From Hyphomicrobiales bacterium (lineage in GTDB: Bacteria > Pseudomonadota > Alphaproteobacteria > Rhizobiales > Rhizobiaceae), in the NCBI GenBank assembly GCA_002709005.1, contig PAPH01000047.1, forward strand, positions 1 through 64,000: DNA of 64,000 bases, written 5' to 3'. Positions 2,340 to 55,478 of the stretch are shown here, one piece after another. Within the stretch, counting starts at the first letter, position 1, and every line of letters starts with the position of its first letter. Under the pieces are notes generated by a model. The model saw only the letters and a program-made list of their open reading frames with translations, did no database searches and had not been told where the DNA came from. Made by a program: the position numbers and the translations under genes.

Positions 2340-2871
2340 TTTGGCACTCCGGACTGTGCAGAATTTCGGTGAAATGGCCCTCCCGCGGGTCCGATGAAAC
2401 GCATCATGCGTTCCGGATGCCGCAGGGGCTCAGCCAACTTCTTCCTGGACTCCGCCGGGTTAAAATTCCGATAACCTAATATTGCAAGATGGGATGACGA
2501 CCGGAGGTCTCAGCACTCCGGCGCGACCACCGGTCGGGAGGCCGCGTTCATTGCCGCCCCGAGTGGAGCCGCGGCACTTTCGACGGGGAGCCGGCTCCAT
2601 GCGCCGGGTGCGACACCCCTTCTTTCGCCAAGGTCGCCGCTACGCCGATTATCCGGCCCCGGCCTGAATGTGGGGCTGGGGGCAACGGAAAAGTGGACTG
2701 TAGGCAATTCTGGTCATGCCCCGTTCCAGTAGAGTTGTCATCGAGCGGACCGGCACATTGGGAATCCTCAGGGTTTCATGGTCCGGCACGGATTCAAGGC
2801 GTCCCGCAAGAACGGCCCAAGCCGCAGGGGACATCGGAACAGACAACGATCGATACATCAGGGGAACCAGT

Positions 2872-4434
2872 ATGATCACACGGCGCAATGTCCTTCATGG
2901 CTCACTGCTTGCAACCGCCGGCGCTGCCGTCGGCCGCATCAATCCCGATTTCTTCTTCACCTCCGCCCATGCCCAGGAAGGCCGCACCATGCGCTTCCTC
3001 GGCGCCGAGGCGCTGACCGGCAACTGGGACCCGACGACCCACACCAATCTCGGCCAGCTCATCGTTGAAGGCTTCGTCTTCGGCTATCTCACCCGCGCGC
3101 CGATGAGCCCGGACAATCCGGAAGAACTCATCTACGAACTTGCAACCGAAATGAATTCGGTCGACGAGTACACGCTGGAAGTGAAGCTGCGCGAAGGCGT
3201 CAAATTCCATGACGGCACGCCGTTCACCGCAGCCGACGTCAAGGCGACCTACGAATATGGCTGTCAGCCGGACCGTCCGGCGCAGTGGTATCCGGGCCAG
3301 GTGAAGGTGGAGGTCATCGACGACCTGACCTGCCATATCAAGACCGAGGAATTCGGCTATCCGGCGGCGCTCTATATCTACCTGTCGTCCTTCCTGCCGA
3401 TCATGGCCGCCAAGGACGTGGAGAACAAGGCGCAGCTCTCGGCGCGCATGAACGGCACCGGCCCGATGAAATTCGTCGAGCAGCAGGGCGATTCGACCTT
3501 CCTCGAGGCCAATGCGGATTTCCTCGGCGGCGCGCCCAAGATCCCGGGAGTCGAATACCGTTTCGTCGGCGACACCACGACCCGCACGCTGTCGCTGCTG
3601 AACGGGGAGGCCGACATCATCGAGCGCCTGGAAGCCGAGCAGGTGGACACGATCGCAGCCGACGACCGCTTCACCATCTCCAAGGCGCTTTCGGTCGAAA
3701 ACAAGTATCTCTTCTTCCGCTGCTCGAAGGCGCCCTTCGACAACCCGCTGGTCCGCCAGGCAGCTGCGCACGCCATCGACCGCGAAGGCATTCTCGAAAT
3801 CCTCGGCGTCTCGGGCGCGTTCTCGAAGGCTCACATCTCGCCGGTCAAGTTCGGCTACACGGAAGTCGAGAACTACCGCGAATACGATCCGGAAAAGTGT
3901 CAGGAACTGCTCGCCGAAGCCGGCTTCCCCGGTGGCGAGGGCCTTCCGGAGCTGACCTACTACACCTCGGTCGGGTTCTATCCGAAGACCAAGGAATATG
4001 CCGAGTACATCGCGGCGCTGCTTCAGGAGCAGGGTTTCAAGATCAACCTGCAGACGCTCGAAGTGGCCGCCTGGGGCAACCTTCTCTACGACAAGGAAGG
4101 CGGCGGCGAAGGCAACATGATCGACTGCGGCTGGTGCACCGGTTCGCCCGAGCCGGACCTCGTCCTGCGCACGCACTTCCACTCCTCGTCCAAGCGCATC
4201 ACCGGTATCGTCGATCCGGAAATTGACGCCGTGCTCGACAAGGAGCGCAACGCCAAGACGATCGACGAGCGCCGCAAGATCCTGCAGGAGGAAACCCTGC
4301 CGATGATCGCCGACAAGGTGCCGGCGCATGCGCTGTTCACCTCGGTGTTCATCCACGCCTACACCAAGGAACTGGAAGGTCTCTACATCTATCCCAACGG
4401 GATGCAGGATGTGACCGACGCGACGCTCGGCTGA
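2872..4434 (+). CDS. ABC transporter substrate-binding protein, family 5 (dipeptide/oligopeptide type), Tat signal
   Basis: MITRRNVLHGSLLATAGAAVG Tat-like signal; SBP_bac_5 hallmarks (LREGVKFHDGTPFTAADV, NPLVRQAAAHAIDR). Confidence 0.93.
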   Translation: MITRRNVLHGSLLATAGAAVGRINPDFFFTSAHAQEGRTMRFLGAEALTGNWDPTTHTNLGQLIVEGFVFGYLTRAPMSPDNPEELIYELATEMNSVDEYTLEVKLREGVKFHDGTPFTAADVKATYEYGCQPDRPAQWYPGQVKVEVIDDLTCHIKTEEFGYPAALYIYLSSFLPIMAAKDVENKAQLSARMNGTGPMKFVEQQGDSTFLEANADFLGGAPKIPGVEYRFVGDTTTRTLSLLNGEADIIERLEAEQVDTIAADDRFTISKALSVENKYLFFRCSKAPFDNPLVRQAAAHAIDREGILEILGVSGAFSKAHISPVKFGYTEVENYREYDPEKCQELLAEAGFPGGEGLPELTYYTSVGFYPKTKEYAEYIAALLQEQGFKINLQTLEVAAWGNLLYDKEGGGEGNMIDCGWCTGSPEPDLVLRTHFHSSSKRITGIVDPEIDAVLDKERNAKTIDERRKILQEETLPMIADKVPAHALFTSVFIHAYTKELEGLYIYPNGMQDVTDATLG

Positions 4435-4561: not shown

Positions 4562-5542
4562 ATGATCTTCGTAGAATTTCTCATCAAGCGGATCCTTCAG
4601 GGGCTCGTGATCGTGGCGATCACATCGTTCGTCATCTTCACCCTGCTCCGGGTGATCCCGGGCGATCCGGTCCGGCTCATCGTCGGCGGCATGGCGCCCG
4701 ACAACGTGGTGGAGGAGGTCGCCGCGAAGATGGGTCTGAGAGACCCGATTCTGGTGCAGTACGGTCGCTACATGGGCAACCTGGTGACCGGCGACATGGG
4801 ACAGTCCTATCTCAGGCCGAAGAGCGGCATGATCGCCACCGGCGGCGAATATGTCGATCCGACGAAATCCGACATGGCGGAGGTGTGGGACCTCATTCTC
4901 GAGCGGGTGCCGCTCACGCTTCAACTGGCGGCAACAGCGCTCGTCTTCGCGCTATTGGTCTCCTTGCCCATCGGCATAGCCGGCGGGCTGAGATCCGAGG
5001 GGTGGCCGGCGCGCATCGCCTTCGGCATTCAGTCGCTGTTCGTCTCTATCCCGAATTTCTGGCTGGCGATCATCCTGATCCTGTTCCTGTCGGTGAAATG
5101 GCACCTCATCCCGGCGCTCGGCTACAAGGGTTTTGCCTATGTCATCCTGCCGGCGATCGTGCTGGCGGTGGAAATCTCCCCCTTCATCATCCGCACGCTG
5201 ACGACGTCGCTCGCGGAGGTCATGCAGTCCTATTTCATCGACGAGGCGAAGGTGCGCGGCCTGCCGCGGCGGCGGATCGTCTTCGGGCACGCGCTGCGCA
5301 ACGCCTCGGTGCCGCTGATCAACCTGCTCGGCATCCAGCTCTCGACGCTGATCGGTGGGGTTCTCGTGGTCGAATACATCTTCGACTATCCGGGCCTCGG
5401 CCATCTGACGGTGGTCTCCGTGGTGGGGCGCGACTTCCCGGTCATCCAGGGCATCGCGATCACCATCAGCGCCGTGTTCGTCTTCATCAACATTCTCGTC
5501 GATCTCGTTGCCTACATGATCGACCCGCGCGTGGAGCTGTAA
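4562..5542 (+). CDS. ABC transporter permease (DppB-like)
   Basis: DppB-type N-terminus (RILQGLVIVAITSFVIFTLLRVIPGDPVR), C-terminal BPD_transp fold. Confidence 0.93.
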   Translation: MIFVEFLIKRILQGLVIVAITSFVIFTLLRVIPGDPVRLIVGGMAPDNVVEEVAAKMGLRDPILVQYGRYMGNLVTGDMGQSYLRPKSGMIATGGEYVDPTKSDMAEVWDLILERVPLTLQLAATALVFALLVSLPIGIAGGLRSEGWPARIAFGIQSLFVSIPNFWLAIILILFLSVKWHLIPALGYKGFAYVILPAIVLAVEISPFIIRTLTTSLAEVMQSYFIDEAKVRGLPRRRIVFGHALRNASVPLINLLGIQLSTLIGGVLVVEYIFDYPGLGHLTVVSVVGRDFPVIQGIAITISAVFVFINILVDLVAYMIDPRVEL

Positions 5543-5545
5543 ACC

Positions 5546-6472
5546 ATGTCCGACGTCGCACAGATCACTCCCACCGCGCCGGTGGCCGCCGAAAATGAAG
5601 GCCAGTCGACCGTCACCATGCGTATTCTCAAGACGGCCTGGCGTTCAAAGGCATTCCAGTTCGGTTTCTGGATCTTCGTGATCCTCGTCGTCACGTCGCT
5701 GATCCTTCCGCTCGTCTCCCCGGTCAGCGCCACCAAGATGGCGATCCGCGAGAAATTCCTGCCACCGCTGTTCATGGGCGAGGGCTGGAGCTGGATCCAT
5801 CCGCTCGGCACCGACCAGCTCGGCCGCGACATGCTGATGCGCTGCATGGTCGGCCTGCGCTATTCGCTGATGATCGGCATCATCACCGTGGTTCTGATGT
5901 TCATCGTCGGCTGCGGACTGGGCCTGCTCGCCGGCTTCAAGGGCAAGTGGTGGGACACGATCATCATGCGCATCACCGATGCCCAGCTCTCGCTGCCGAT
6001 GATCATTCTGGCGATCACAATCCTCGGCATTTCCAAGCCTTCGGTCGCCTCCATCATCGTGGTGCTTGGCCTGTCCGGCTGGCCGCTTTACGCGCGCGTG
6101 GCGCGGTCGGCCGCCGTCACCGAGCGCGAGAAGGAATATGTCCGCGGGCTGCGCGTCGTCGGGGCTGGCGACTGGCGCATCCTGCTTCTCTACGCGGCAC
6201 CCAACATCCTTCCGCCGATCGCCTTCGTCGCGGTTCTCGACATCGCCCGGATGATGATCTTCGAATCCATTCTCGGATTCCTGGGTCTCGGCATCCAGCC
6301 GCCGACCCCGAGCTTCGGCTCGATCATCGCGGACGCGCGCAAATATCTCATCAATGCCTGGTGGATCGCCACCAGTCCCGGGGTCTTTCTGGCCGTCGCG
6401 CTGACGGCGATCAACCTGATGGGCGCGTCGCTCGAGAAGGCCCGCAACACCGTCTATGCGGGGGCGCGCTGA
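5546..6472 (+). CDS. ABC transporter permease (DppC-like)
   Basis: HPLGTDQLGRDMLMRCMVGLRYSL and EYVRGLRVVGAGDWRILL motifs; 3 nt after the upstream permease. Confidence 0.93.
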   Translation: MSDVAQITPTAPVAAENEGQSTVTMRILKTAWRSKAFQFGFWIFVILVVTSLILPLVSPVSATKMAIREKFLPPLFMGEGWSWIHPLGTDQLGRDMLMRCMVGLRYSLMIGIITVVLMFIVGCGLGLLAGFKGKWWDTIIMRITDAQLSLPMIILAITILGISKPSVASIIVVLGLSGWPLYARVARSAAVTEREKEYVRGLRVVGAGDWRILLLYAAPNILPPIAFVAVLDIARMMIFESILGFLGLGIQPPTPSFGSIIADARKYLINAWWIATSPGVFLAVALTAINLMGASLEKARNTVYAGAR

Positions 6473-8115
6473 TGTCCACTCCCATTCTCAAGGTCGACAA
6501 TCTCACCGTCGCGGCCGGCGACAACCGCATCATCGACGGCGTCTCCTTCGAAGTCGGCAATTCCGAGATCTACGGGATCTATGGGGAAAGCGGCGCGGGC
6601 AAGACGACGCTCGGGCGGGCGCTCGCCAACTGGCTGCCGGCGGGCGTCGAGCAGACCGGCGGCAAGGTGCTGTTCGCCGGCCACGATCTCAGGACCACCG
6701 GCGCGAACCGCGTCACCATCGGTCGTGACATCGCCTATATCGGGGCCAAGCCGCAGAGCGCACTCGATCCAACGGTGCCGGTCGGCCCGCAGATCGTCGA
6801 GAAGCTCCTGATGGTTCAGCCGGGCCTGACCAGAACCGAGGCGAAGCAGCGGGTGATGGATCTTCTCCACGAGGTCCGCATCGCATCGCCCGAAGAGCGC
6901 TTCTACGATTACCCGACGAAATATTCGGGCGGCATGATGCAGCGCGCGATGATCGTCGACGCGCTTTGCGCCGATCCGGCGGTGCTGATCGCCGACGACA
7001 TCATCCGCCCGCTCGACGTCACGGTCGCCGCGCAGATCGTCTCTATCCTCAAGGATTTGTGCCTCAAGCGGAAAATGGCGGTGATCTTTCTCGCCTCCTC
7101 GCTGCTGGCGCTGAGGCTCGTGGCCGGCAAGGTCGGCGTCATGCACGAGGGCAGGCTGATCGAGGAGCAGCCGGTGGAGACGCTTCTGACCGCGCCGAAG
7201 ACGGAATACACCAAGACCGCGATCTCGCATGTGCCGCGGATCTGGTCGTCGAACGAGTTCCCGGAGGACCGGGGCCGGGCCGACGACAAGCCGCTGATGG
7301 AAGTGCGCGAGGTCAGCCGGACCTACAAGGTGCGCAAGCGCGGCACGTTTGGACAGTTCAATCACGTCAAGGCGGTGCAGGGCGTTTCCTTCGATATCAT
7401 GCCGCGCGAGAATTTCGGCATTGTGGGAGAATCGGGATGCGGCAAGTCCACGCTTACCCGGTTGCTCACCTGGCTCGAAAAGCCCGATAGCGGCGACATC
7501 CGTCTCGGGGGAACGTCGCTGGCGAATTTTTCCGGCCGCGAGCTTCTCGACAAGCGCCGCGAGTTCCAGCTTCTCCTGCAGGATCCCTACAATTCGCTGC
7601 CGCCGCGCGTCACCGTGGGGCGGATGATCGAGGAGGGCCTGCGGCTGCGCGGCACGCCGAAGGCCGAGATGCGAGAGAAGGTGAAGGAGGCGATGGTCTC
7701 CGTCGGTCTTCCGACATCGATCTACGACGATCTGCCGAACGCGCTGTCGACCGGCGAACGTCAGCGCATCTCGATCGCCCGGGCGCTGGTGCTCGATCCG
7801 AAACTCCTGATTCTCGACGAGACGCTGTCGGCGCTCGACCAGGGCGAGCAGTCGAAACTCATCGACCTGTTCGCCAAACTGCAGGAGACGAAGGACCTCA
7901 CCTATGTCTTCATCTCTCACGACCTCGCCATGGTGCGGAAGGTCTGCAACCGGATCGGGGCGATGTATTTCGGCAAGATGGTGGAGATCGGCGACAACAA
8001 GTCGATCTTCTTCGAGCCCAAGCACGACTACACCAAGGCGCTCCTCTCCGCCGCCCCGACGCTTGACGAAAAGCCGTTCGACGCCGGCGAACTCGGCTTC
8101 GAGCCCATTCAATAG
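6472..8115 (+). CDS. Fused double ATP-binding subunit of dipeptide-type ABC transporter
   Basis: Two Walker A motifs (GESGAGKTT, GESGCGKST), two signature regions (YSGGMMQR, LSTGERQR); start overlaps upstream stop (ATGA). Confidence 0.92.
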   Translation: MSTPILKVDNLTVAAGDNRIIDGVSFEVGNSEIYGIYGESGAGKTTLGRALANWLPAGVEQTGGKVLFAGHDLRTTGANRVTIGRDIAYIGAKPQSALDPTVPVGPQIVEKLLMVQPGLTRTEAKQRVMDLLHEVRIASPEERFYDYPTKYSGGMMQRAMIVDALCADPAVLIADDIIRPLDVTVAAQIVSILKDLCLKRKMAVIFLASSLLALRLVAGKVGVMHEGRLIEEQPVETLLTAPKTEYTKTAISHVPRIWSSNEFPEDRGRADDKPLMEVREVSRTYKVRKRGTFGQFNHVKAVQGVSFDIMPRENFGIVGESGCGKSTLTRLLTWLEKPDSGDIRLGGTSLANFSGRELLDKRREFQLLLQDPYNSLPPRVTVGRMIEEGLRLRGTPKAEMREKVKEAMVSVGLPTSIYDDLPNALSTGERQRISIARALVLDPKLLILDETLSALDQGEQSKLIDLFAKLQETKDLTYVFISHDLAMVRKVCNRIGAMYFGKMVEIGDNKSIFFEPKHDYTKALLSAAPTLDEKPFDAGELGFEPIQ

Positions 8116-8176: not shown

Positions 8177-8433
8177 GAGGTGAGCGGTTTCGAATGTGCC
8201 CCGCTGCGCCCACTCGGTGCGGACCGCCGACATCCAGAACCCGAGCATGACCAAAGCAGGGTAGCGAGCCTCCGCGTTCAATTCCACAACCGCAGCGGAC
8301 CGTGCCTTTCCTCAACAAAAAGGCCGAACTATCGGTCGACCCTTGTATGGGGGCATGCGACGTACGTCAGGAAACGCGATGTTAACCGGAGTGCAGGTCT
8401 ATCGGTAAACCTGGCTGTGAGGGGAGGCGAGGT

Positions 8434-8908
8434 GATGAGAGCTTATTCGACGCTTCAGATTTCGCTGCATTGGCTCATCGCGGCCATGGTCGGCGCGCAG
8501 TGGTATACGTCGGGCGCCATCCACCGAACCCATAATCCATTGGTGCCGCCGACGGATACCGATCTCCTCCTGCACGCCCTGCACAATTACGGAGGGATGA
8601 CGATCGGCGCGATCATGCTGCTGCGGCTCGGGCTGCGCCTGCGGTACGGAACGTCTCATCGTGTTCGCCCTGTCTCTCTGATGGAACGAGCGGCGAACGG
8701 GCTTCACCTTCTGTTTTATGTGCTCATTCTCATGCAGGCGGGGACCGGCTTTGTCACGAGCTACCTCTGGGGCGGTGCCGGCTCTCTCCATTCAGCACTG
8801 TGGACGGTGCTTCTCGTCCTGATCGCACTGCATGTGAGCGCCGCGCTTTATCACCTGATACGCGGCGACCGCGTCTTCTCCAGAATGCTGCCCTTCGTGA
8901 AGCGGTGA
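8434..8908 (+). CDS. Cytochrome b561 domain protein
   Basis: Four TM segments with spaced His (LHWLIAAMVGAQW, LLLHALHNYGGM, GLHLLFYVLILMQAGTGF, LHVSAALYHLIRGD); RBS-like GGGGAGGCGAGG upstream. Confidence 0.85.
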
Positions 8909-9008
8909 ATGCGAACCGGAGAGCGACGTGTCCCACGGCCAACATATTTGTGATTTGCCGGTTCGTGCGCCGTTGGCTAACACCTCGGGACCATATGGAG
9001 AACCATGC

Positions 9009-9395
9009 GTGCAATTCTCGACACGGCTCATACTCGTCATCGGTTTCCTTCTGGCCGCGATTGCGGGCGGACATGCCGGTCACGTGCGATCGGGCCAGGG
9101 ACCGGTCATGGGTTCCGAGGCAGAGCCGCATCATCATCACGGCAGCCACAGCGAAGCCTCCGGACATCATGCCGGGGCCGTCCAGCATGGTGAAGGATGC
9201 ACCGGTGACCACCGGACCGTGTCACCCGATATGGACGACACCGACTGCTGTGCTGCCGGATGCAGCGCGCTGCATTTTGCCGTCGCCGCAGCGTCAGACA
9301 GTTTCCCGGTAGAGCTTTCAGCCCGTTTTCATTGGCCGGCGACTTCGGCCGACAGCTTCCAGCCGGAGCTTCTACAAAGACCTCCCGAAGCCTGA
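9009..9395 (+). CDS. Small His/Cys-rich secreted or membrane protein, probably metal (copper) related
   Basis: GTG start gives signal-like FSTRLILVIGFLLAAIAGGHA; HHHHGSH stretch, DCCAAGCS motif; inside copper cluster. Confidence 0.6.
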   Translation: MQFSTRLILVIGFLLAAIAGGHAGHVRSGQGPVMGSEAEPHHHHGSHSEASGHHAGAVQHGEGCTGDHRTVSPDMDDTDCCAAGCSALHFAVAAASDSFPVELSARFHWPATSADSFQPELLQRPPEA

Positions 9396-9459
9396 TCTGT
9401 ATCGCCGGCCGGGCCTCTGCCCGGCCCGATGCTGTCTGTGCTTTCGGAGTCTTCCTTTC

Positions 9460-9699
9460 ATGTTCAGGACAATCCTGCCGGTGGCTCTGCCACTGGTTCT
9501 TGGCGCGTGCCAGGCAACGCCGCCCGAAGGGCTCGCGGACGCCGCGCCCCTTCTCGCTCCGGCTGATCCGGATAGATATGCGGCACCCGTGGCTGCGCCT
9601 CGGGTCGTGACCGGATACACCCACCGGGAACCGGTCGATCCGGGCGGATGGCGGCAGCTCAATGACAGTCAGGCGCCTTCGCGGGGTGGCGGATCATGA
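9460..9699 (+). CDS. Small predicted lipoprotein
   Basis: 79 aa with lipobox PLVLGAC; overlaps start of TolC gene by 4 nt. Confidence 0.6.
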   Translation: MFRTILPVALPLVLGACQATPPEGLADAAPLLAPADPDRYAAPVAAPRVVTGYTHREPVDPGGWRQLNDSQAPSRGGGS

Positions 9700-11210
9700 A
9701 CCCGCGTCGGACGACGGTGCTTTCACTGCTTCCGCTTGCGGCCCTGGCTGGGTGCGTACCCGGGGGTGACCTGCCGATGCAGACCGCTCTTTATGAGGAC
9801 AGGACGGCAGGCTTCCGGACCGTCTCGGAAAAGACCGCCGAGGCGACCGGACGCCAGACCGTCTGGCTGCGGAATGCCGAGGCGACACGGCACGCCTCGC
9901 GGCAGGTCCACGCGATGATTCACCGGAAGACCATCAGCGCCGATACCGCGGTGCAGGTCGCGCTTCTCAACAATAGGGGGCTGCAGGCTGCCTATGCGGA
10001 TATCGGCATAGACGCGGCGGATGTCTGGCAGCAGATCCTGCCCGAGAACCCGGTCGTCTCAGTCGGCATTCTCGGCATTGCCGCCCCGGAAGTGGTGCTG
10101 TTCAGGGCGCTCGAAGCGATGATCGCCACCAATCTGCAGGCGATGACGACGCGCGAGCGGCGGGTCGACATCGCCAAGACCCGCTTCGAACAGACCCAGC
10201 TCAAGGCGGTCAACGAGACGCTGCGGCTGGCCGCCGATACGCGCCGCGCCTGGATACGGGCTGTCTCGGCGTTCGAGGCCGTCGCCTATCTCCAGCAGGG
10301 GCAGGTGGCCGCCGATGCCGCGTCGGAGCTCGCCGCCGAACTCGGTCGCTCCGGCGCGCTCGCCAAGGCCGGCCAGGCCCGCGAGCACGCCTTCTATGCC
10401 GAGCTGACCGGGCAACTCGCCGAAGCCCGGCTGAACGCCGCGCTTGCCAAGGAAGAACTCACGCGCCTAATGGGCCTGTGGGGCAGCGAGGTCAGCTACT
10501 TCGTGCCCGACAGGCTGCCGCAACTGCCGAAGGCGCTCAAGAGCGGCCGGTCCATCGAGGCCGAAGCGCTGCGCAAGAGGGTCGACCTGCAGATCGCCAG
10601 GCTCGAGCTCGAACTGGCGGCGAAATCCTACGGCCTGACGGAAGCCACCCGCTATGTGACGGACCTCGAGCTGGTCACCGGTTTCGAGGCCGAGCAGGAG
10701 GTCGAGACCGAATACGAAATCGTCGCCGGCGATCTCGAGGGGGATAAATCGCGCAAGGTGGTGGTGTCGCCGCAGATCGAATTCGAATTCGCCATTCCGA
10801 TCTACGACACCGGCAAGCCGCGCCTGCGCAAGGCCGAACTCACCTATCTGAAGGGCGCGAACCTGCTTGCGGAAAAAGCGGTCAACATCCGCTCTGAAGC
10901 GCGCTCGGCCTACATCAACTACAAGGCCCGACACGAGATCGGTCGGCACTACCGCCGCAGCGTGCTGCCTCTTCGACAGAAGATCGAGGAGGAAAGCCTG
11001 CTCACCTATAACGGCATGATCACCAACACGTTCGAGCTGCTCGCCGATACCCGCGCCAAGATCAACACGCTGGTGATGTCGGTCGACGCCAAGCGCGAGT
11101 TCTGGCTCGCGGAGGCGGATCTGAACGCGGCGATCTACGGCCCCGGCTTCAATGGCGGCGGAGGCGGCGACAGCGCTCCGGCGGTCGCCGATGCCGGCGG
11201 CGGTCACTGA
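9696..11210 (+). CDS. TolC/OEP-family outer membrane efflux protein
   Basis: Lipobox-like LAALAGC N-terminus; OEP repeats with long coiled coils (ALLNNRGLQAAYADIGIDAADVWQQ, TRRAWIRAVSAFEAVAYLQQ). Confidence 0.88.
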   Translation: MNPRRTTVLSLLPLAALAGCVPGGDLPMQTALYEDRTAGFRTVSEKTAEATGRQTVWLRNAEATRHASRQVHAMIHRKTISADTAVQVALLNNRGLQAAYADIGIDAADVWQQILPENPVVSVGILGIAAPEVVLFRALEAMIATNLQAMTTRERRVDIAKTRFEQTQLKAVNETLRLAADTRRAWIRAVSAFEAVAYLQQGQVAADAASELAAELGRSGALAKAGQAREHAFYAELTGQLAEARLNAALAKEELTRLMGLWGSEVSYFVPDRLPQLPKALKSGRSIEAEALRKRVDLQIARLELELAAKSYGLTEATRYVTDLELVTGFEAEQEVETEYEIVAGDLEGDKSRKVVVSPQIEFEFAIPIYDTGKPRLRKAELTYLKGANLLAEKAVNIRSEARSAYINYKARHEIGRHYRRSVLPLRQKIEEESLLTYNGMITNTFELLADTRAKINTLVMSVDAKREFWLAEADLNAAIYGPGFNGGGGGDSAPAVADAGGGH

Positions 11211-11227
11211 CAGGAGAGGGAACGGAC

Positions 11228-12616
11228 ATGATGAACAGACGTCAGATGCTCGGGATGGGCGCCACCGGTGCCGCGCTGGTTTCCGCTCAGGCCTGGGGCA
11301 AGACGACGAATATGGGCCTGCCGGAAGCTGCTGTGATGGACAGTCCGCTCACCCAGCCGCCGGCCATGCCGGCGACGGGCCGGGACTATAATCCGGTTGT
11401 CACGCTCAACGGCTGGACGCTGCCCTTCCGGATGAACAACGGCGTGAAGGAATTCCACCTCGTCGCCGAGCCGGTGGAGCGCGAACTCGCCGAGGGCATG
11501 ACCGCCTATCTGTGGGGTTACAACGGCCAGTCGACCGGCCCGACGATCGAGGCTGTGGAAGGTGACCGGGTGCGGATCTACGTCACCAACAAGCTGCCCG
11601 AACATACCTCGGTGCACTGGCATGGGCTGATCCTGCCGTCCGGCATGGACGGTGTGGGTGGACTGTCCCATCCGGCCATCCCGCCGGGCAAGACCTATAT
11701 CTACGAGTTCGATCTCGTGAAATCGGGCACCTTCATGTACCACCCGCACGCCGACGAGATGGTGCAGATGGCGATGGGCATGATGGGCTTCTTCATCGTT
11801 CATCCGAAAGACCCCGCCTTCATGCCGGTGGATCGCGACTTCCTGATCATGTTCAACGCCTTCGACATCGATCCCGGCTCCTACGTCCCGAAGATCATGA
11901 CGATGACGGATTTCAACCTGTGGTGCTGGAACAGCCGCCTGTTTCCCAATATCGATCCGCTCGTCGTCTCGAAAGGCGACCGGGTGCGGGTGCGTGCCGG
12001 CAACCTGACCATGACCAATCACCCGCTGCACATGCACGGCTACGATTTCGAGGTGACCTGCACGGATGGCGGCTGGGTGCGCCCGGAGGCGCGCTGGCCG
12101 GAAGTCACCGTCGACATTCCCGTCGGCGGGATGCGGGCCTACGAGTTTACTGCCGACCACCTCGGCGACTGGGCGATCCATTGCCACAAGTCGCACCACA
12201 CGATGAACGCGATGGGTCACGACGTGCCCACCTTCATCGGCGTCGACAAAGCGCGCGTAAGCCGGAAGATCCGGCTTCTGCAGCCCGAATACATGCCGAT
12301 GGGCACCGCGGGCATGGCCGACATGGGTGAGATGTCCATGGAACTGCCGGACAACACCGTTCCGATGATGACCGGCTGGGGCCCCTACGGACCGCTCGAG
12401 ATGGGCGGCATGTTCTCGGTGGTCAAGGTGCGCGAAGGCATCTCTGCCGGCGATTATGCCGATCCCGGCTGGTACGAAAACCCGCCCGGCACCGAGGCCT
12501 ATGAATGGACCGGAGAACTTCCGGACTTCCACGCCCGGACCAGTCCCGCCACCCAGACGCCATCCGCTCCATCAGGAGGCCACGGCAGTCACACGAACAC
12601 CACCACCAAGGGCTGA
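11228..12616 (+). CDS. Multicopper oxidase (copper tolerance type), Tat exported
   Basis: MMNRRQMLGMGATGAAL Tat-like signal; copper ligands HWHG, HPH, HPLHMHG, HCHKSHHTMNAM; Met-rich C-terminal region. Confidence 0.93.
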   Translation: MMNRRQMLGMGATGAALVSAQAWGKTTNMGLPEAAVMDSPLTQPPAMPATGRDYNPVVTLNGWTLPFRMNNGVKEFHLVAEPVERELAEGMTAYLWGYNGQSTGPTIEAVEGDRVRIYVTNKLPEHTSVHWHGLILPSGMDGVGGLSHPAIPPGKTYIYEFDLVKSGTFMYHPHADEMVQMAMGMMGFFIVHPKDPAFMPVDRDFLIMFNAFDIDPGSYVPKIMTMTDFNLWCWNSRLFPNIDPLVVSKGDRVRVRAGNLTMTNHPLHMHGYDFEVTCTDGGWVRPEARWPEVTVDIPVGGMRAYEFTADHLGDWAIHCHKSHHTMNAMGHDVPTFIGVDKARVSRKIRLLQPEYMPMGTAGMADMGEMSMELPDNTVPMMTGWGPYGPLEMGGMFSVVKVREGISAGDYADPGWYENPPGTEAYEWTGELPDFHARTSPATQTPSAPSGGHGSHTNTTTKG

Positions 12617-12649
12617 ACGCATGCCCGAACATCGAAAGAGGAAATCACT

Positions 12650-13144
12650 ATGAGACTAGTCCTTGCAGCCGCACTCATGGCGCTCGCACCTTCTGTCGCG
12701 CTTGCCGCAGGCAGCCACGCCGGCGGTCACGGTCATGGCGACATGCATGCCGAGATGATGGTGGGCGAGCCCGGCGATGCCGCGAACGTCGACCGCACGA
12801 TCAAAGTGACGATGCGCGAGACCGACGATGGCGACATGCTCTTCGAGCCGAACTCGCTGTCTGTCAGAGCCGGCGAGACCATCCGCTTTCATGTCGTCAA
12901 CAAGGGTGAGCTCGAGCACGAATTCGTTCTCGACCACCACGAGAAGATGATGGAGCACAAGGCGCTTATGGAGAAGTTCCCGGAAATGGAACATGACGAT
13001 CCGAACGCGATCAGGCTCCAGCAAAAAGAGGACGGCGACGTCGTCTGGACATTTACCCAGGCAGGCGACTTCGAGTTCGGCTGCCTGATCCCCGGCCACT
13101 ACGAAGCCGGCATGAAGGGCTCGATCACCGTCGCCGCCCAGTAA
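12650..13144 (+). CDS. Periplasmic cupredoxin (plastocyanin/azurin-like copper protein)
   Basis: Signal peptide, HAGGHGHGDMHAEMM stretch, cupredoxin ligands NKGELEHEF and FGCLIPGHYEAGMKG. Confidence 0.9.
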   Translation: MRLVLAAALMALAPSVALAAGSHAGGHGHGDMHAEMMVGEPGDAANVDRTIKVTMRETDDGDMLFEPNSLSVRAGETIRFHVVNKGELEHEFVLDHHEKMMEHKALMEKFPEMEHDDPNAIRLQQKEDGDVVWTFTQAGDFEFGCLIPGHYEAGMKGSITVAAQ

Positions 13145-13176
13145 TCCGCCATTCCCGCACGAAAGGAACCGACCCC

Positions 13177-13461
13177 ATGAAGACATCTCTCGTCACGATT
13201 CTGGCTGCCGCTCTCAGCCTCACGGCCTCCGCCGCCTTCGCCACCGATTACACCAAGGGCACGGTCAAGAAAGTGGACATGAAGGCGAAGAAGGTCACCA
13301 TCATCCACGAGGAACTGAAGAACCTCGACATGCCGGCCATGACGATGGTCTTCTATCCCAAGGACGAGGCCATGCTCGAACAGATGAAGGTCGGCGAAGT
13401 CATCGAATTCGTCGCGGACCGCGTCAACGGCAAGCTGACCGTTACCGAACTCAAGGAGTAG
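13177..13461 (+). CDS. CusF-family periplasmic copper-binding protein
   Basis: Signal peptide; GTVKKVDMKAKKVTIIHEELKNLDMPAMTMVF matches the CusF core. Confidence 0.88.
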   Translation: MKTSLVTILAAALSLTASAAFATDYTKGTVKKVDMKAKKVTIIHEELKNLDMPAMTMVFYPKDEAMLEQMKVGEVIEFVADRVNGKLTVTELKE

Positions 13462-13526: not shown

Positions 13527-14783
13527 CTACCCCTTCGCAGCCGGCGGGGCGGTGACGAGGCGGTCGAGGATGGTGGCGAGCCAGGCGACACCGAGTTCGA
13601 GATCTTCCATGTCGGTGAACTCGTCGGGGTGGTGGCAGAGGCCGGCGCGGCTCGGGACCGTCAGCATCAGGCAGCGAGAGACCTCGCTCATCATGATCGC
13701 GTCATGGCCGGGGAGCGTCGTGACGCCCGCCGGCTCCTCGCCGAGATCGCGGGCGATGGACCGTGCCAGGTCGCCGAGTTCCACGTCGAAGACACCGGGT
13801 CGGCGCAGGTCGTCACGGACGATCTCGTAGCCGACGCCCGCGGTTTTCGCGGCGTTCTCAACGATCGGCGTCACCCTGGCGATGTTGTCGGCCATGACGT
13901 CGGGGTCCGGCGAGCGGATCTCGACGAAGCCGGTGGCCGAATCCGGCACCACGTTGCGGGAATTGGGAGAAACGAGAAGCTTGGCGACGGACGTGTGCAG
14001 GGAGCCAACCTGTGCGGCATCTGCCAGGCCTCGCACCCCCGTGATCATCATGGCTGCCGCATAGAGCGCATCCTTGCGCTTGGCCATCGGGGTCGGGCCG
14101 GTATGGGAGGTCTCGCCGATGAAGCGGATATCGAGCTTGTGGGCACCCCACCAGCGCTCGAAGATGCCGAGCCGCGCATTGATCTCCTCGAGCGACGAGC
14201 CGCACTCGACATGGAGTTCGACGAAGGCGTTCGGATAGGGGGGTGGGGTGTCGGTACCGAGGAAGCCGATCTGTTCCAGCGCATCACGGGCGACGATGCC
14301 CTCTGCGTCCTTCTGGTTCAGCGTCTCCTCGGCGGTTGCGCCGCCCATATAGACTTTCGAGCCCATGAACGTGTTGAAGCGCGCGCCTTCCTCGCCGGAG
14401 AAGGCGACCACGGCGAGATTGGCCTTTGCCGAGCCCTCGCTCGCCAGCTTGTCGCGCACGGCAATGGCCGCGTCCAGGGCCGCGATCACCCCATAAGCGC
14501 CGTCGAAGCGGCCGCCCTGCGGCTGGCTGTCGATATGCGAACCGCTCAAGATCCAGGGCGCGTCGGGCCCGGCCAATTCGAGAAGGCCGAAGATGTTGCC
14601 GACCTCGTCGATGCGGACCTCGAAACCCTCTTCCTTGAGCCAGGCGACGAGTTGTTCGCGGGCCTTGCCGTTGGCGGCGGTTGCTTCCATGCGGTGGACC
14701 CCGCCGTCGCCGGTCGAGCCGATTTCGGAGAAGGCCTCGAAGCGGGCCTTGAAACCCGGCGGGCAGGCATAGGTGGCGGTCAT
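13527..14783 (-). CDS. Zn-dependent amidohydrolase, M20 hydantoinase/N-carbamoylase (allantoate amidohydrolase) family
   Basis: SGSHIDSQPQGGRFDGAYGV, SGEEGARF, PGHDAIMMSEV family motifs. Confidence 0.9.
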   Translation of the reverse strand: MTATYACPPGFKARFEAFSEIGSTGDGGVHRMEATAANGKAREQLVAWLKEEGFEVRIDEVGNIFGLLELAGPDAPWILSGSHIDSQPQGGRFDGAYGVIAALDAAIAVRDKLASEGSAKANLAVVAFSGEEGARFNTFMGSKVYMGGATAEETLNQKDAEGIVARDALEQIGFLGTDTPPPYPNAFVELHVECGSSLEEINARLGIFERWWGAHKLDIRFIGETSHTGPTPMAKRKDALYAAAMMITGVRGLADAAQVGSLHTSVAKLLVSPNSRNVVPDSATGFVEIRSPDPDVMADNIARVTPIVENAAKTAGVGYEIVRDDLRRPGVFDVELGDLARSIARDLGEEPAGVTTLPGHDAIMMSEVSRCLMLTVPSRAGLCHHPDEFTDMEDLELGVAWLATILDRLVTAPPAAKG

Positions 14784-14806
14784 GATCGTTTCTCCAGTCT
14801 CGGGGT

Positions 14807-16207
14807 TCAGTCGCGCGGCACGGTCGGCCAGTCCATCTCGATGCCACGCAATTCCTCGAGCGCCTTGGTGATCTGGAGCACGCCGAGATCGTCGCAGCGG
14901 TGCCCGACCACTTGCACGCCGATCGGCAGATGGCGCTCGTCAAAGGCGAAATTCACCGAGGAAGCCGGCTGGCCGGTCTGGTTGAACATCGCGGTGAAGA
15001 CGGTGTGGGCGAGCGGCTTGTCGCGGAACATGCCGGGCTCCTCGGCCGGGAAGTTGACGACCGGCAGGGTGGGTGCGAGCACATAGTCGTAATCCGCGAA
15101 AGCGTCGTAGAGCTTCGCCCGCATGCGGGTGATCTCGCCGAGGATGGCCCAGGCCTCGAGCGCACCCATGTCCTTGGCCGGCTGGCACCAGTCGCGGACA
15201 TAGTGGAGGAATTCGTGGTCCTCGTGCTCGGGCAACGCCTTCCACTCAGCATAGCCGCGGATCATCAGCCACTTGTCGATCGGCTCGTAGCAGTCGGTAG
15301 CGAGCGGCGAGACGAAGGGCGAAACGATCGCGCCCTGTGCTTCCAGCGCTTTGCCCGCGGCCTCGACGGTGGCAGCGACGATGGCTTCCGGCTTTGGTCC
15401 GAAGCCCATGTCGGTGAGGATGCCGATCTTCAGGCCTTTCAAGTCGCGTCCGAGATTGTCCTGATAGACGGTATCGTCGGCGGGGAAGCTCCACGGGTCG
15501 CGCTCGTCGAAACCCGAAAGGATCGACATGAGGAAGGCGATATCCTCGGTGGTGCGGCCCATCGGGCCGGCAGAGCGCATGAATTCCGGCATCAGATGCG
15601 GGATGCGGCCCTGGGTGGGCTTCAGCGAAACGAGACCGCAATGACCGGCGGGGCAGCGCACCGAGCCGGCAATGTCCGAGCCGACGGATAGAAAACCCAT
15701 CCCGGAGGCTAGCGAGGCGCCGGCGCCTGCCGAGGAGCCGCCGGTATTGTAGGCGCGGTTCCAGGGATTGCGAACGACGCCGAACATGGTGGAAACGCCG
15801 GCAGCCAGAAGTCCGCAATCGGGCATGGTGGTCTTGGCGAAGATTGTCGCACCCGTTTCCTTCAGCCGCGCGGCGGGCGGGGAATCCCAGTTCGACGGCG
15901 GCAGCGACTTGTTGGCGGCGATGCCGTGGTAGAAGGGCCAGCCTTTCATGGCGACCGAATCCTTGATCGTCATCGGCACGCCGTCGAGCGGGCCAAGCGG
16001 CGCGCCGTCCTTCCAGCGCTTTTCCGAAGCCTTCGCATTTTCCATCGCCTCGTCGGGCCGGATCGAAAAGAGCGCGTTGAGCGAGCCGTTGGTCGCCTCC
16101 ACATGGCTGAGCGTCGAGGACAATGCTTCCACCGGGGACAACGAACCCTTGCGGAATCCGTCGGTCAGTTCCCTCACGCTTGTGGTGGCCATTTCGGTGG
16201 GCGTCAT
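14807..16207 (-). CDS. Amidase (amidase signature family)
   Basis: Start at MTPTEMATTSVREL; GSSAGAGASLASGMGFLSVGSDIAGSVRCPA; catalytic Lys in VPMTIKDSV. Confidence 0.93.
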   Translation of the reverse strand: MTPTEMATTSVRELTDGFRKGSLSPVEALSSTLSHVEATNGSLNALFSIRPDEAMENAKASEKRWKDGAPLGPLDGVPMTIKDSVAMKGWPFYHGIAANKSLPPSNWDSPPAARLKETGATIFAKTTMPDCGLLAAGVSTMFGVVRNPWNRAYNTGGSSAGAGASLASGMGFLSVGSDIAGSVRCPAGHCGLVSLKPTQGRIPHLMPEFMRSAGPMGRTTEDIAFLMSILSGFDERDPWSFPADDTVYQDNLGRDLKGLKIGILTDMGFGPKPEAIVAATVEAAGKALEAQGAIVSPFVSPLATDCYEPIDKWLMIRGYAEWKALPEHEDHEFLHYVRDWCQPAKDMGALEAWAILGEITRMRAKLYDAFADYDYVLAPTLPVVNFPAEEPGMFRDKPLAHTVFTAMFNQTGQPASSVNFAFDERHLPIGVQVVGHRCDDLGVLQITKALEELRGIEMDWPTVPRD

Positions 16208-16396
16208 CGATTTCTCCCAGGATGATTTTCTCATGCGGCAGCCTGTCATAGCCGCGGAAACCGTGCCCGGGGGACGGCTTTCGGGGCGCAATCAAGCTTT
16301 CGTGGACACAGAGACAAGCTGCGCCGGTGACAGGCCACCCGGCCCATTGCAAGATGCCGGCAACAAGAAAAGCAACGATATCCGTATGAGGGGTAC

Positions 16397-17347
16397 ATGG
16401 ACGATCAACAAATGCTGGAAGCCGCCGTCCGGAAGGTGAAGGGGTGGGAAGACCGCCCCGTTGTCATCGAGCCGGCCATTCCGGTCCTCGCGTCTCCGAG
16501 CTGGCGCGGCGTCGACGGGGAGCCATCCGTGGCGCGCGACACCGAGACCGAGGCGACGATATTCATCAAGAAGATTCATGAGGATACGGGCGTCTATGTC
16601 GACGTGCCGGCATCGTTTGACGCGGCGATCAAGGCGGGCGAAATCGGCGTGGGACCGAAGGTCCTTTATTCCGATGCCGAGGCGGGCCTCCTGATCATGG
16701 AGGACCTCTCGGCCGCCGCCGGATGGCGGGTCGCGGGTCTGGAGAAGTGCTACGAGCCGGATTTCATCGAGGCCGTGGTCGCCGCCCGGAAGAGGTTCGC
16801 GGATGTCACCGCGCTCACCCGCAAGGCTGATGTGTTCGCCGATATCGAAACATTCTGGGCGGTGGTGAATGAGAAGGCTGTCACCGTGCCTTCCGAGACC
16901 GCGTGGATGGTCGACATGGCCCGCTTCGCCGCCGAGGCGATGACGGGCGGGGCCGCGGCCTCCGTGCCGATCCACGGCGACGGCAATTGCTCGAACATCA
17001 TGTGGAACAAGGACGGAGAGGTCCGGCTGGTCGATTTCGACCGCGCCGGCAACGGCGATCCTCTGGAGGACGCTGGCTCGTTCTTTGTCGAGGCCTTCGC
17101 CTTCGAACCCGAAGCGCGGGAAGCCTATTTCCGGCTGTTCCCCGATGCGAGCGAAACAGGCTTCAACCGGCTGAGGTTCTACGGCTTCGCCGATGACCTG
17201 CGCTGGGGACTGATCGGCGCGATCCAGGCGAGCACGTCGCCGCGTCGCGTGCATGAATTCTACAAATACTCGAACTGGCGCTTCCTGCGTGCCCGCATGG
17301 CCGCGCGCGATCCCCGCTTCGGCGAGCGCATCAGGAGGGCCGCATGA
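16397..17347 (+). CDS. Phosphotransferase family (APH-like kinase)
   Basis: Brenner-type motif VPIHGDGNCSNIMWN and LVDFDRAGNGDPLED. Confidence 0.88.
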   Translation: MDDQQMLEAAVRKVKGWEDRPVVIEPAIPVLASPSWRGVDGEPSVARDTETEATIFIKKIHEDTGVYVDVPASFDAAIKAGEIGVGPKVLYSDAEAGLLIMEDLSAAAGWRVAGLEKCYEPDFIEAVVAARKRFADVTALTRKADVFADIETFWAVVNEKAVTVPSETAWMVDMARFAAEAMTGGAAASVPIHGDGNCSNIMWNKDGEVRLVDFDRAGNGDPLEDAGSFFVEAFAFEPEAREAYFRLFPDASETGFNRLRFYGFADDLRWGLIGAIQASTSPRRVHEFYKYSNWRFLRARMAARDPRFGERIRRAA

Positions 17348-18288
17348 TCATTCGCAGAAAGCTGGGCGAGGCCCGCAGCCAGTATGAGCGCGACGTGGAA
17401 GCCGCGATCCGCCGGGTGCCGCAATGGCAGGGCAAGGAGATCTTTTACGGCATGCTGGTAGGCGGGCTGAACAACCGCAACTGGCGTGTGCAGATCGAAG
17501 GCGATCCGCGCGATTACTTCCTCAAGATCCCCGGTGAGGGGACGGAAATGTTCATCGACCGGGTATCCTCGAACGAGGCGGCGGTGAACGCCCACAAGCT
17601 GGGCATCGCGCCGGAGGTCGTCTATTTCGATTCTTCCGACGGCATGGAGGTCCACGAGTTCCTCGACGGCTATCAGGCCTGCACCACCACGGATTTCTTC
17701 AAGCCGGAAATCCAGGAAGCGGTAATGGGCCTCTACAAGACCTTCCATGGCGGGCCGAAATTGTCGATGACGAAGACGATCTTCGATCTCATCGACGAGC
17801 ATCTCGAGCAGGCGCGATCCCTCGGCTCGCACCTCAACGAGGACATGGAGTGGATGCTGCACTATTACGAGCAGGCCCGCGCCGCGTTCACCGCTTCGGG
17901 TCTCGATCTCGTATCCTGCTTCAACGATCCGATGCCCGGCAATTTCCTGGTGAGCGACGGCAAGCCGATGAAGCTGATCGACTACGAGTTCGCCTCCACC
18001 AATGAGCGCGCCTATGAATTGGGCGTCCTGTTCGGCGAGATGTTCTTCGACGAGCCGAAGACGCTGGAGCTTATCGAGATGTATTACGGCGAACTGAGAC
18101 CTGAGCTCGTCGCCCGCGTCTATGTCTGCCGCGCGCTCGCCGACATCAAATGGGCCTCCTGGGCCGTGGTGTCGCGCAAGCTCAACGACTGGGATTTCGA
18201 TTTCCAGAAATACGGCGTGTGGAAGTACATGCGCGCCCGTGACCTGTTTCTCGATGCGCGTTGGGATGGCTGGCTACGCCAGATCTGA
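17344..18288 (+). CDS. Choline/ethanolamine-kinase-like phosphotransferase (APH superfamily)
   Basis: VSCFNDPMPGNFLV...MKLIDYEFASTNERAYELGVLFGE; overlaps preceding kinase by 4 nt. Confidence 0.88.
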   Translation: MIIRRKLGEARSQYERDVEAAIRRVPQWQGKEIFYGMLVGGLNNRNWRVQIEGDPRDYFLKIPGEGTEMFIDRVSSNEAAVNAHKLGIAPEVVYFDSSDGMEVHEFLDGYQACTTTDFFKPEIQEAVMGLYKTFHGGPKLSMTKTIFDLIDEHLEQARSLGSHLNEDMEWMLHYYEQARAAFTASGLDLVSCFNDPMPGNFLVSDGKPMKLIDYEFASTNERAYELGVLFGEMFFDEPKTLELIEMYYGELRPELVARVYVCRALADIKWASWAVVSRKLNDWDFDFQKYGVWKYMRARDLFLDARWDGWLRQI

Positions 18289-18317
18289 CCCCATCTGAGA
18301 TCAAATGCGACCGATGG

Positions 18318-18342
18318 AGGGCGGCCCCGGGGCCGCCCTTTT
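18318..18342 (+). terminator. Rho-independent terminator after the kinase pair
   Basis: AGGGCGGCC-CCGG-GGCCGCCCT followed by TTTT. Confidence 0.8.
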
Positions 18343-18405
18343 CGTTTGCCGCGCACCCCAGCGGCGGACTCCCCGAAACGTGTGTTGCCATGTTTCGTGC
18401 AAGTA

Positions 18406-18440
18406 TTGGAAGTATCCACAAAAAATGTGGACACTTCCAA
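18406..18440. promoter_or_regulatory. Large dyad upstream of the DeoR-family regulator (candidate operator)
   Basis: TTGGAAGTATCCACA-AAAAA-TGTGGACACTTCCAA: 15-bp arms with one mismatch. Confidence 0.6.
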
Positions 18441-18529
18441 ATTTTCGTGTCATCGTGCTTATCAATTGAGCTTCGGAGGCGTTTGCCTAAAACGAAGTCT
18501 TTGTCTGGAATCAAGCGATCGGGGGATCG

Positions 18530-19339
18530 ATGGCCAAGACGGAAGATGTGCAGAGCCTGACGGCGCATAGGATTTCCAAGAGCGATCGTCACGAGCGGAT
18601 CATCTTCGAGCTTTCGGCTTCGCCGACGCTCAGGGCCTCCGAACTCGCTTCCACTTTGGGCGTCTCCCACGAGACCATTCGGCGCGACCTGATGGAGCTC
18701 GACAATCGCGGGCTCATCAACCGCACCTATGGCGGTGCCGCCCGACCCTTCGCCTTCGAGGCGCCGCTGCGCGAACGCAGCCAGTACAAGGTTGCCGAGC
18801 GCGAGCGGATGGCAGCCGCCGTCTGCGATCTAATCTCGGAAAACGAGGTCGTGCTGATGGGCGCGGGCGCCACCACCAATCATGTGGCGCGGCGCATGGC
18901 ATCCATGCAGCGGCGCAACACGGTCATCACCCACGACTTCTCGGTTGTGCAGGTGCTTTGCCACAATCCGATGATCAAGGTGCTGTTCCTGCCGGGGAGG
19001 GCGCATCCGTCGGAGGGTTACGTCTACGGCAACCAGACGGTCGCCGGCATCAACGGCTTCCAGGCCAACTGGGCCATCGTCGGCGCCTCCGGGATCGATG
19101 TGGAAGGCGTCTACGACGCCGATGACGAGGCGGGTGCTGTCTATCGCGCCATGGTGCTTCGCGCGTCGCAATCCGTGCTCGTCGCGGATTCCACCAAGTT
19201 CCAGCTCGCCTCACTGGTCTGTTACGCGCACTGGGAGGAACTCGACTTTTTCTTCACCGACACGACTCCGCCAACCGCGCTCGAAAAGGCGGTCAGGGCG
19301 GCGGGTGTCGAACTGGTGACCACCTCTACTCGTATTTAG
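18530..19339 (+). CDS. DeoR-family transcriptional regulator
   Basis: HTH LRASELASTLGVSHETIRRDLMELDNRGLINRTYGGA plus DeoR C-terminal sensor domain. Confidence 0.93.
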   Translation: MAKTEDVQSLTAHRISKSDRHERIIFELSASPTLRASELASTLGVSHETIRRDLMELDNRGLINRTYGGAARPFAFEAPLRERSQYKVAERERMAAAVCDLISENEVVLMGAGATTNHVARRMASMQRRNTVITHDFSVVQVLCHNPMIKVLFLPGRAHPSEGYVYGNQTVAGINGFQANWAIVGASGIDVEGVYDADDEAGAVYRAMVLRASQSVLVADSTKFQLASLVCYAHWEELDFFFTDTTPPTALEKAVRAAGVELVTTSTRI

Positions 19340-19353
19340 CAATGGAGGCCGAA

Positions 19354-20274
19354 ATGACGGTTCAGACCCTTCTCGAAACAGTCTCATTCTACGGGGATGT
19401 GGTTGACGCGCCCGCATTCGCATCCAATTTCGACTATGCCATTGGTCGGGTAACGATCGCCAAGGGCGGTATCGGCGAAACTCGTGTGGTCAATGAAGGC
19501 CAGCGGGAATCCTCCGAGATCCAGGACCATTACGACGTCATTATTCCCTGCGACGGGACGATGTCGTTCTGCCAGCGCGACCGGCGCGGCGAGGTGGAGC
19601 CCGGCGAATACGTGCTTTTGAACCGCAGCCAGTTCTACGAGTTGTCCTCGCCCTCCGATCTCAGGCACTGGCGCATCACGCTGCCGGCGGCCGATCTCAA
19701 GGGACGGCTGTCCTCCGTCGACGATCACGTCGGCAAGCGCTTCGAGCAGAATGTCCGTATGGCCTGCCTGCTGCGCGGCTTCGTGTCGATGATCGCCAAG
19801 ACCTTCGTCGAGGAGAGCCCGCCCAACCCGGAAGCGCTCGCGACCGAAGTCATCAGCTTCGTGATGCTGGCGCTGGCGGCCGAGAACCGCAAGGAAGCGG
19901 CGAACTGGCGTAACAGCCGCTACCGGCTCAAGCAGCGGATCTTCGATTTCATCGAGATCAATCTCGACGATGTCGAACTGTCGCCGAAGAAGATCGCCCG
20001 GGCCAACCGGATCTCGCCGAGCTATCTCTATTCGCTGTTTGCCGACAACAACACGACGGTGAGCCAGTTCATCCAGGCGCGGCGGCTTCAGAAGGCCTAC
20101 GAAATGCTGGTGGCAGATGCCAACGGGGCGCTCACGGTCTCCGAGATCGCCTATCAGGTCGGCTTCAAGAACGCCTCGCATTTCTCCCGTACCTTCAGCC
20201 GGCATTTCCGCATCGCCCCGCGCGATGCGCGCCAGTCCGGTCTGGCCGGGCGAATCCGCGAAGCGGCCGTCTGA
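19354..20274 (+). CDS. AraC-family transcriptional regulator
   Basis: C-terminal double HTH (ISPSYLYSLFADNNTTVSQFIQARRLQKAYEML, VSEIAYQVGFKNASHFSRTFSRHFRIAPRD). Confidence 0.94.
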   Translation: MTVQTLLETVSFYGDVVDAPAFASNFDYAIGRVTIAKGGIGETRVVNEGQRESSEIQDHYDVIIPCDGTMSFCQRDRRGEVEPGEYVLLNRSQFYELSSPSDLRHWRITLPAADLKGRLSSVDDHVGKRFEQNVRMACLLRGFVSMIAKTFVEESPPNPEALATEVISFVMLALAAENRKEAANWRNSRYRLKQRIFDFIEINLDDVELSPKKIARANRISPSYLYSLFADNNTTVSQFIQARRLQKAYEMLVADANGALTVSEIAYQVGFKNASHFSRTFSRHFRIAPRDARQSGLAGRIREAAV

Positions 20275-20292
20275 TTCTCCCTTGAAAGTCAG

Positions 20293-20340
20293 CGTAAGTT
20301 GCAAGGTTCCACATTTGTGAAACCCTGCACTTACGTTTTT
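20293..20340 (+). terminator. Dyad with T-tract downstream of the AraC-family gene
   Basis: CGTAAGTTGCAAGGTTCCACA-TT-TGTGAAACCCTGCACTTACG followed by TTTTT. Confidence 0.6.
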
Positions 20341-20507
20341 GGCTCCCTCCTGCCGGGCCGGGCATGCCCTCCCTCCAGCAAATCTTTGCTCGCAATCCTG
20401 CCGGTCGCTTTGCCGATGGACGCCTCCGGGCGCTTTGACCAAGATCGCTTCGAAGAGCCGGGCGGGGACGTTTCGCACCGGCCGGAAAAATACAAAAGGG
20501 TTCCCGA

Positions 20508-22654: not shown

Positions 22655-22674
22655 ATGCAGGGAAAGGGACATCG

Positions 22675-24042: not shown

Positions 24043-24073
24043 CAGCCGCAGGACCACATAGAGAGACACGCCA

Positions 24074-31465: not shown

Positions 31466-31480
31466 TCGTGACAAACCCGG

Positions 31481-31509
31481 TCCGGGCCGCCTTCATCCGG
31501 CGGCCCGGA
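31481..31509 (+). terminator. Intercistronic stem-loop between SBP and ATPase genes
   Basis: Perfect 11-bp stem TCCGGGCCGCC-TTCATCC-GGCGGCCCGGA. Confidence 0.6.
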
Positions 31510-31553
31510 GCACTCCCCTTTTGCATCCGGAATCGCCAGGAACCGAGCCGAGC

Positions 31554-55416: not shown

Positions 55417-55478
55417 GGGGCTCTCGGAATTCCTGGGTGGTTTGTCCGGTCACGGGCCGCTTGGGCGCGTGACGCTAT

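Follow-up and report, generated by a model that had tools for sequence, protein, structure and literature searches.

A fused Opp/Dpp-type ABC importer ATPase family with a degenerate first ATP site and a putatively catalytic second site

Introduction

Whether ABC importers hydrolyse one or two ATP molecules in each transport cycle has been argued mostly from engineered mutants, and the pattern of a half-dead ATP site is textbook in exporters. Proteins with a degenerate NBS include TAP1/2, the ABCC family, CFTR, TM287/288, BmrCD, TmrAB and Pdr5, and in full-length human proteins it is always NBS1 that is degenerate, with the NBD2 signature always changed, the Walker B glutamate next and the H-loop often; the glutamate is replaced by Asn in Pdr5 and by Ser in CFTR (PMC7756269). 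Among importers, the fused NBDs of the type II proteins RbsA and NupO also contain one degenerate site, which results from loss of the second Walker A lysine together with a changed signature (PMC11466899).

The closest described systems among type I peptide importers are DppD and OppD (Rv1281c) of the Mycobacterium tuberculosis (Mtb) DppABCD and OppABCD complexes (8wd9, 8wdb, 8j5s), which likewise have NBD1 and NBD2 fused, and E. coli DppDF, GsiA and YejF, which are of the same transporter family. Both E. coli ATPases, DppD and DppF, have functional motifs. When the glutamate of just one of them is changed to Gln, clear ATPase activity persists, at a similar level in the two cases (PMC12136057), so a single live site can suffice for turnover in the Dpp fold. 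In the literature searched, which covers few subscription papers, no degenerate site has been described for a peptide-type importer. Here we describe a fused ATPase encoded in a 64,000-nucleotide stretch of DNA (the window), and its relatives, whose motifs show NBS1 to be degenerate and NBS2 intact. Asymmetric fused importers and the exporter pattern are already known; what appears to be new, judging from the motifs, is a degenerate NBS1 in a type I importer, and at the level of a whole family.

Results and Discussion

Gene organisation and transporter class

The ATPase is a fused dipeptide-type NBD1-NBD2 protein of 547 amino acids (6472-8115, + strand). Upstream on the same strand lie the genes for an SBP_bac_5 substrate-binding protein (2716-4434; Pfam PF00496, 5e-71), whose translation read from 2866 starts with an RR-type signal sequence, and for two BPD_transp_1 permeases, one DppB/OppB-like (4562-5542; PF00528/PF19300) and the other DppC/OppC-like (5546-6472; PF00528). 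The binding-protein orthologue adjoins the degenerate ATPase in relatives with flanks long enough to show it, and the first permease is also a conserved neighbour. The ATG of the ATPase overlaps the TGA of the second permease (TGATG), through which the two are translationally coupled. Since this operon brings together a binding protein of family 5, a pair of BPD_transp_1 permeases and an ATPase of the Opp/Dpp type, the transporter is an Opp/Dpp/Nik-type (type I) importer.

The ATPase itself contains two PF00005 domains and a partial oligo_HPY match. Its best NCBIfam matches are in the YejF/DppF/GsiA-like group, and it scores below every named equivalog cut-off of these models (YejF 367 against 834 bits, GsiA 353 against 1077, PRK11308 397 against 408). 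Identity is 35-36% to Mtb DppD and 32% to Mtb OppD. An AlphaFold2 model (pLDDT 87, pTM 0.81) has the OppD/DppD fold, the Mtb OppD and DppD structures being its top PDB matches with TM scores of 0.78-0.88 normalised by query and the highest value, 0.88, obtained against the pre-catalytic state of OppABCD (8j5s). Two canonical ATP sites, which are typical of type I importers though not strictly defining, are not present in the ATPase.

Architecture of the two ATP sites

A first-pass annotation of the window had reported that NBD1 lacks the Q-loop glutamine, the catalytic glutamate and the H-loop histidine while keeping Walker A and the signature, and on all of these points residues and coordinates proved to be correct. 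In the Q-loop, YIGAKPQ (6736-6756), Gln is replaced by A92 (codon 6745-6747). In the Walker B/D-loop segment VLIADDIIRPLDV (6982-7020), the Walker B stretch VLIADDII (6982-7005) reads ADDII in place of ADEPT, so that D175 is retained and the catalytic glutamate has become D176 (codon 6997-6999). In the H-loop, VIFLASSL (7081-7104), His is replaced by S209 (codon 7096-7098). Walker A, GESGAGKTT (6583-6609), and the signature, YSGGMMQR (6922-6945), are intact. All of these motifs, like those of NBD2, are on the + strand.

The same annotation had described NBD2 as canonical, which holds for Q370 in the Q-loop LLLQDP (7570-7587), for the catalytic E450 in Walker B LLILDETLSALD (7804-7839) and for H483 in the H-loop FISHDL (7909-7926), and Walker A, GESGCGKS (7426-7449), is likewise intact. 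It does not hold for the signature, LSTGERQR (7744-7767), in whose core LSTGE (7744-7758) T427 takes the third position, that of the first glycine of LSGGQ. As this altered signature faces the Walker A of NBD1, NBS1 is degenerate on both faces. The degenerate element is thus best described, on motif grounds, as the composite site NBS1 (NBD1 Walker A/B and NBD2 signature) and not simply as NBD1, since the signature and D-loop Asp of NBD1 stay intact and would serve the live site. NBS2, made up of the NBD2 motifs and the YSGGM of NBD1, is complete. The pattern is that of a degenerate-NBS protein, with the Walker B Glu lost and the opposite signature altered at one site and the other site intact.

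Comparison with degenerate sites of other transporters

The site matches the rule for human degenerate sites point for point, the loss of the Q-loop glutamine being an extra that is not among the listed changes (PMC7756269). As in the degenerate-NBS exporters and CFTR, the Walker B Glu of NBS1 is lost, the H-loop and the NBD2 signature are changed and NBS2 is intact, and most members of the family have the same Glu-to-Asn replacement as Pdr5. However, the proteins of that group export substrates or, in the case of CFTR, form a channel with TMDs of the exporter type, whereas the ATPase described here belongs to a binding-protein-dependent importer with fused NBDs; no exporter-type TMD is fused to an NBD, the permeases being separate BPD_transp_1 proteins. 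With separate permeases and a binding protein, the ATPase would work like the degenerate-NBS exporters but is not a member of that group. Within its own class, Mtb DppD keeps Q-loop, Glu, His and signature in both NBDs of the alignment, in contrast to the ATPase of the window, whose NBS1 is degenerate on both faces.

The resemblance to RbsA and NupO is that of a mirror image. In these type II importers NBS2 is degenerate, facing a changed first signature, through loss of a Walker A lysine, whereas the type I ATPase described here has lost the catalytic, switch and Q-loop residues of NBS1 and the opposite signature with both Walker A motifs intact; a second Walker A without Lys, as in the RbsA/CUT2 type, is not found in any of the 76 family members described below, all of which have K325. 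The annotation had also called such asymmetry unusual for a peptide importer. This stands in so far as the literature searched describes no case, but importers as such are not free of it, since the asymmetric fused type II importers are known (PMC11466899). The window itself encodes three RbsA-type fused sugar-importer ATPases (31356-33443, 53965-55449 and 60697-61959), and among them the ATPase at 54 kb has the mirror-image asymmetry already known for this type, with IGVGKQ as the first signature and a second Walker A, GLMGSGRTE, that has no Lys.

Distribution and phylogeny of the degenerate family

Relatives were gathered by a genome-contig scan, genome searches and plasmid records, which gave 120 full-length rows. 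The degenerate set comprises 76 of these, with 45-67% identity and the window's own protein counted in. The other 44 are at about 40% identity or less, and 40 further fused ATPases were taken from the list of relatives, two of them (L129, L130) being paralogues from the same genome. All 76 relatives with at least 45% identity show the three NBD1 losses, so that none has an intact NBD1, whereas none of the 84 more distant ones does, all of these being canonical in both NBDs. The degenerate NBS1 is therefore a fixed trait of the family.

The position of the NBD1 Q-loop Gln is occupied by Gly (29), Ala (22), Ser (21), Pro (3) or Asn (1), that of the catalytic Glu by Asn (70), Ser (5) or Asp (1), and that of the H-loop His by Ser (71), Ala (3) or Asn (2), and the family also conserves the segment that has replaced Walker B, ADN[IV]TQPLDVT. 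Invariant in all 76 are the Walker A Lys, Walker B Asp and D-loop Asp of NBD1, the S, G, G and M of its signature, and the Walker A Lys, Gln, Glu and His of NBD2. The glycine of the NBD2 signature, present in all canonical relatives, is replaced by Ala (53) or Thr (20) in 73 members, and the remaining three, which form one lineage (L074-L076), have KSGSFR at this place. These three come from single-cell genomes or MAGs of alphaproteobacteria and sit on a long branch of the tree; theirs is the most extreme NBS1 degeneration seen.

In a quick tree, calculated with the motif columns masked and rooted at midpoint, one branch (SH-aLRT 100) separates the degenerate rows from all others, which corresponds to one change. 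As all 76 share one ancestry, the four changes are best taken as roughly a single evolutionary event, maintained ever since. No intermediate between canonical and degenerate forms was found in a class-wide search of 385 genomes or in a phylum-wide motif search of 399 genomes, the latter with a pattern that fixes Asn at the Glu position and is blind to members with Asp or Ser, the ATPase of the window included. The matches fell into two groups, fully degenerate at 49% identity and above and fully canonical at about 40% and below. The family is found mostly in alphaproteobacteria and is carried by five of the 385 sampled genomes of the class, its own genome included (about 1 in 75).

Members also occur on Agrobacterium and Rhizobium conjugative plasmids (pAt1, pRL12 and pAoF64/95; L111, L112, L113) as an island that combines transport and catabolism, and some copies have EutBC or an N-formylglutamate amidohydrolase close by. 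Some Rhizobium plasmid copies (H44, H45, H60) are split into two tblastn pieces and are possibly frameshifted.

Proposed mechanism and alternative explanations

We consider it probable, reasoning from motif content, that the family represents a type I importer motor in which NBS2 is catalytic and NBS1 holds ATP without useful hydrolysis and acts as a hinge. NBS2, in which Walker A/B, Q-loop and H-loop of NBD2 face the YSGGM of NBD1, would bind and hydrolyse ATP. NBS1, in which Walker A/B of NBD1 face the LSTGE of NBD2, would still be able to bind Mg-ATP, as suggested by the invariant Walker A Lys and Walker B Asp, but without useful turnover, the catalytic Glu, switch His and Q-loop Gln being gone and the signature opposite altered. 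ATP standing in NBS1 would then serve as a hinge that keeps the NBDs engaged, and NBS2 would power each transport cycle with about one ATP. The prediction of the first-pass annotation, one non-hydrolytic site fixed in cis, gains support and is extended, with the partner signature altered too and the trait found clade-wide. Close homologues with an intact NBD1 and errors of register, either of which would have spoken against it, were looked for and neither was found. ATP retention, non-hydrolysis, the hinge role and the stoichiometry are here inferred from the motifs. Without the Q-loop Gln, Mg binding or coupling to the TMDs could be altered, and NBD1 may communicate with its permease in a different way. 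The coupling loop of the OppB-type permease (4562-5542) is mostly VRG[LI] in the family versus AKGL in only three distant relatives; with three controls, this might be linked to the altered Q-loop of NBD1.

NBS1 might instead neither bind nor hydrolyse ATP, NBD1 being a structural scaffold that supplies YSGGM to NBS2. NBS1 has lost four of its catalytic or sensing elements, among them the Q-loop, and in E. coli DppBCDF without DppA an ATP analogue was present only in the DppF site despite canonical motifs (PMC12136057). However, all 76 members retain the Lys of Walker A and the Asp of Walker B in NBD1, which would be superfluous in a pure scaffold, and the RbsA and NupO sites that were judged not competent for ATP binding are those without the Walker A Lys (PMC11466899), so we regard a scaffold as unlikely. 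Hydrolysis at NBS1 through other residues (the Asn, Asp or Ser at 176, the D-loop, S209) is less probable still. D176 of the window's ATPase could permit slow hydrolysis, as for Glu-to-Asp exporters, and slow turnover at impaired sites has been discussed for exporters (PMC4046567), but 70 of the 76 have Asn at position 176, which would not be expected to serve as the base, and both His and Gln have been lost concurrently.

Neutral decay, or an early pseudogene of a redundant transporter, would fit the slightly faster evolution of NBD1, whose mean pairwise identity in the family is 55% versus 61% for NBD2 (51% versus 50% in the canonical set) and whose median dN/dS is 0.081 versus 0.055, and also the in-frame stop in the ATPase of one MAG member (L043, 6001-7638). 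Yet these dN/dS values, taken from close pairs with the saturated distant pairs set aside, are far below 1, so both NBDs are under strong purifying selection and NBD1 is not decaying; a somewhat faster NBD1 is what is expected if catalytic constraint is lost and structural and ATP-binding constraint kept. The ORF in the window is intact, the replacement Walker B segment is conserved, the order of binding protein, permease, permease and ATPase is retained across many genera, and the active site of NBD2 is perfect throughout the family. Moreover, NBS2 is spared and all of the damage is to NBS1, on both faces, as a selected division of labour predicts, whereas random decay of NBD1 alone would not predict it. 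We therefore hold decay to be very improbable, and to an alignment or sequencing artefact we give next to no credence. The same residues are missing in independent isolate genomes and plasmids, and the alignment is in register, since the conserved anchors ALDP, LDVT and Walker A flank the motifs and align with canonical relatives including Mtb DppD.

If NBS2 is the motor and NBS1 the hinge, the family would offer a type I importer that naturally runs on one site, for which the canonical paralogues in the same cell could serve as controls. The broader proposition, that a type I importer clade has independently evolved the exporter-style combination of a hinge NBS1 and a motor NBS2, with one ATP hydrolysed per cycle and two competent sites unneeded, we put at about even chances. 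Should it be true, then with the NBS1 Q-loop Gln lost as well, the contact through which an NBD senses its permease would survive in one NBD only. The appearance of the degenerate-NBS1 rule of human exporters in an unrelated importer lineage suggests a general advantage of the hinge-plus-motor design.

Gene neighbourhood and candidate substrate

Downstream of the operon lie catabolic genes (13527-21311) for an M20 Zn-hydrolase and an amidase on the - strand and, on the + strand, an APH-type kinase, a choline/ethanolamine-type kinase, a DeoR regulator and a HisN-like phosphatase, assigned from family matches and from a neighbourhood conserved in relatives and annotated plasmids. In relatives, genes for an M20 Zn-hydrolase, an amidase, a HisN-like phosphatase and DeoR accompany the operon, as do two kinases from the aminoglycoside/choline-kinase superfamily. 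Ethanolamine ammonia-lyase EutBC is near the operon in several relatives and is absent from the window's set at 13.5-21.3 kb. In the window these genes are followed by a class III aminotransferase, which most resembles the corresponding domain of PRK06148/PRK06149 proteins and is a possible phospho-lyase, and by a ligase resembling glutamine synthetase and an iron-containing alcohol dehydrogenase. The wider putative amino-alcohol/amide catabolic cluster extends over 13527-26887 and also holds AraC, GATase and HAD phosphatase genes.

From these neighbours, the most economical guess is that the importer takes up ethanolamine or a similar amino alcohol in amide-bound or conjugated form and not an ordinary dipeptide. 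No characterised family member was found that would name the substrate, and the plasmid copy on pAoF64/95 gave no further lead. In a second sub-lineage (L045, L048, L051, L063, L065) most of the catabolic genes are absent within the flanks seen and the ATPase is still degenerate, which indicates that the motor trait is independent of the catabolic context.

Between the operon and the catabolic genes, the window contains a copper-related block (8300-13200) with an outer membrane efflux protein, a multicopper oxidase, an azurin-like cupredoxin and, judged by eye, a b561-like membrane protein. This block looks like an insertion, since in Labrys and Rhodopseudomonas relatives (L035, L039, L040, L041, L086) the Zn-hydrolase follows the ATPase at about 0.4-0.9 kb.
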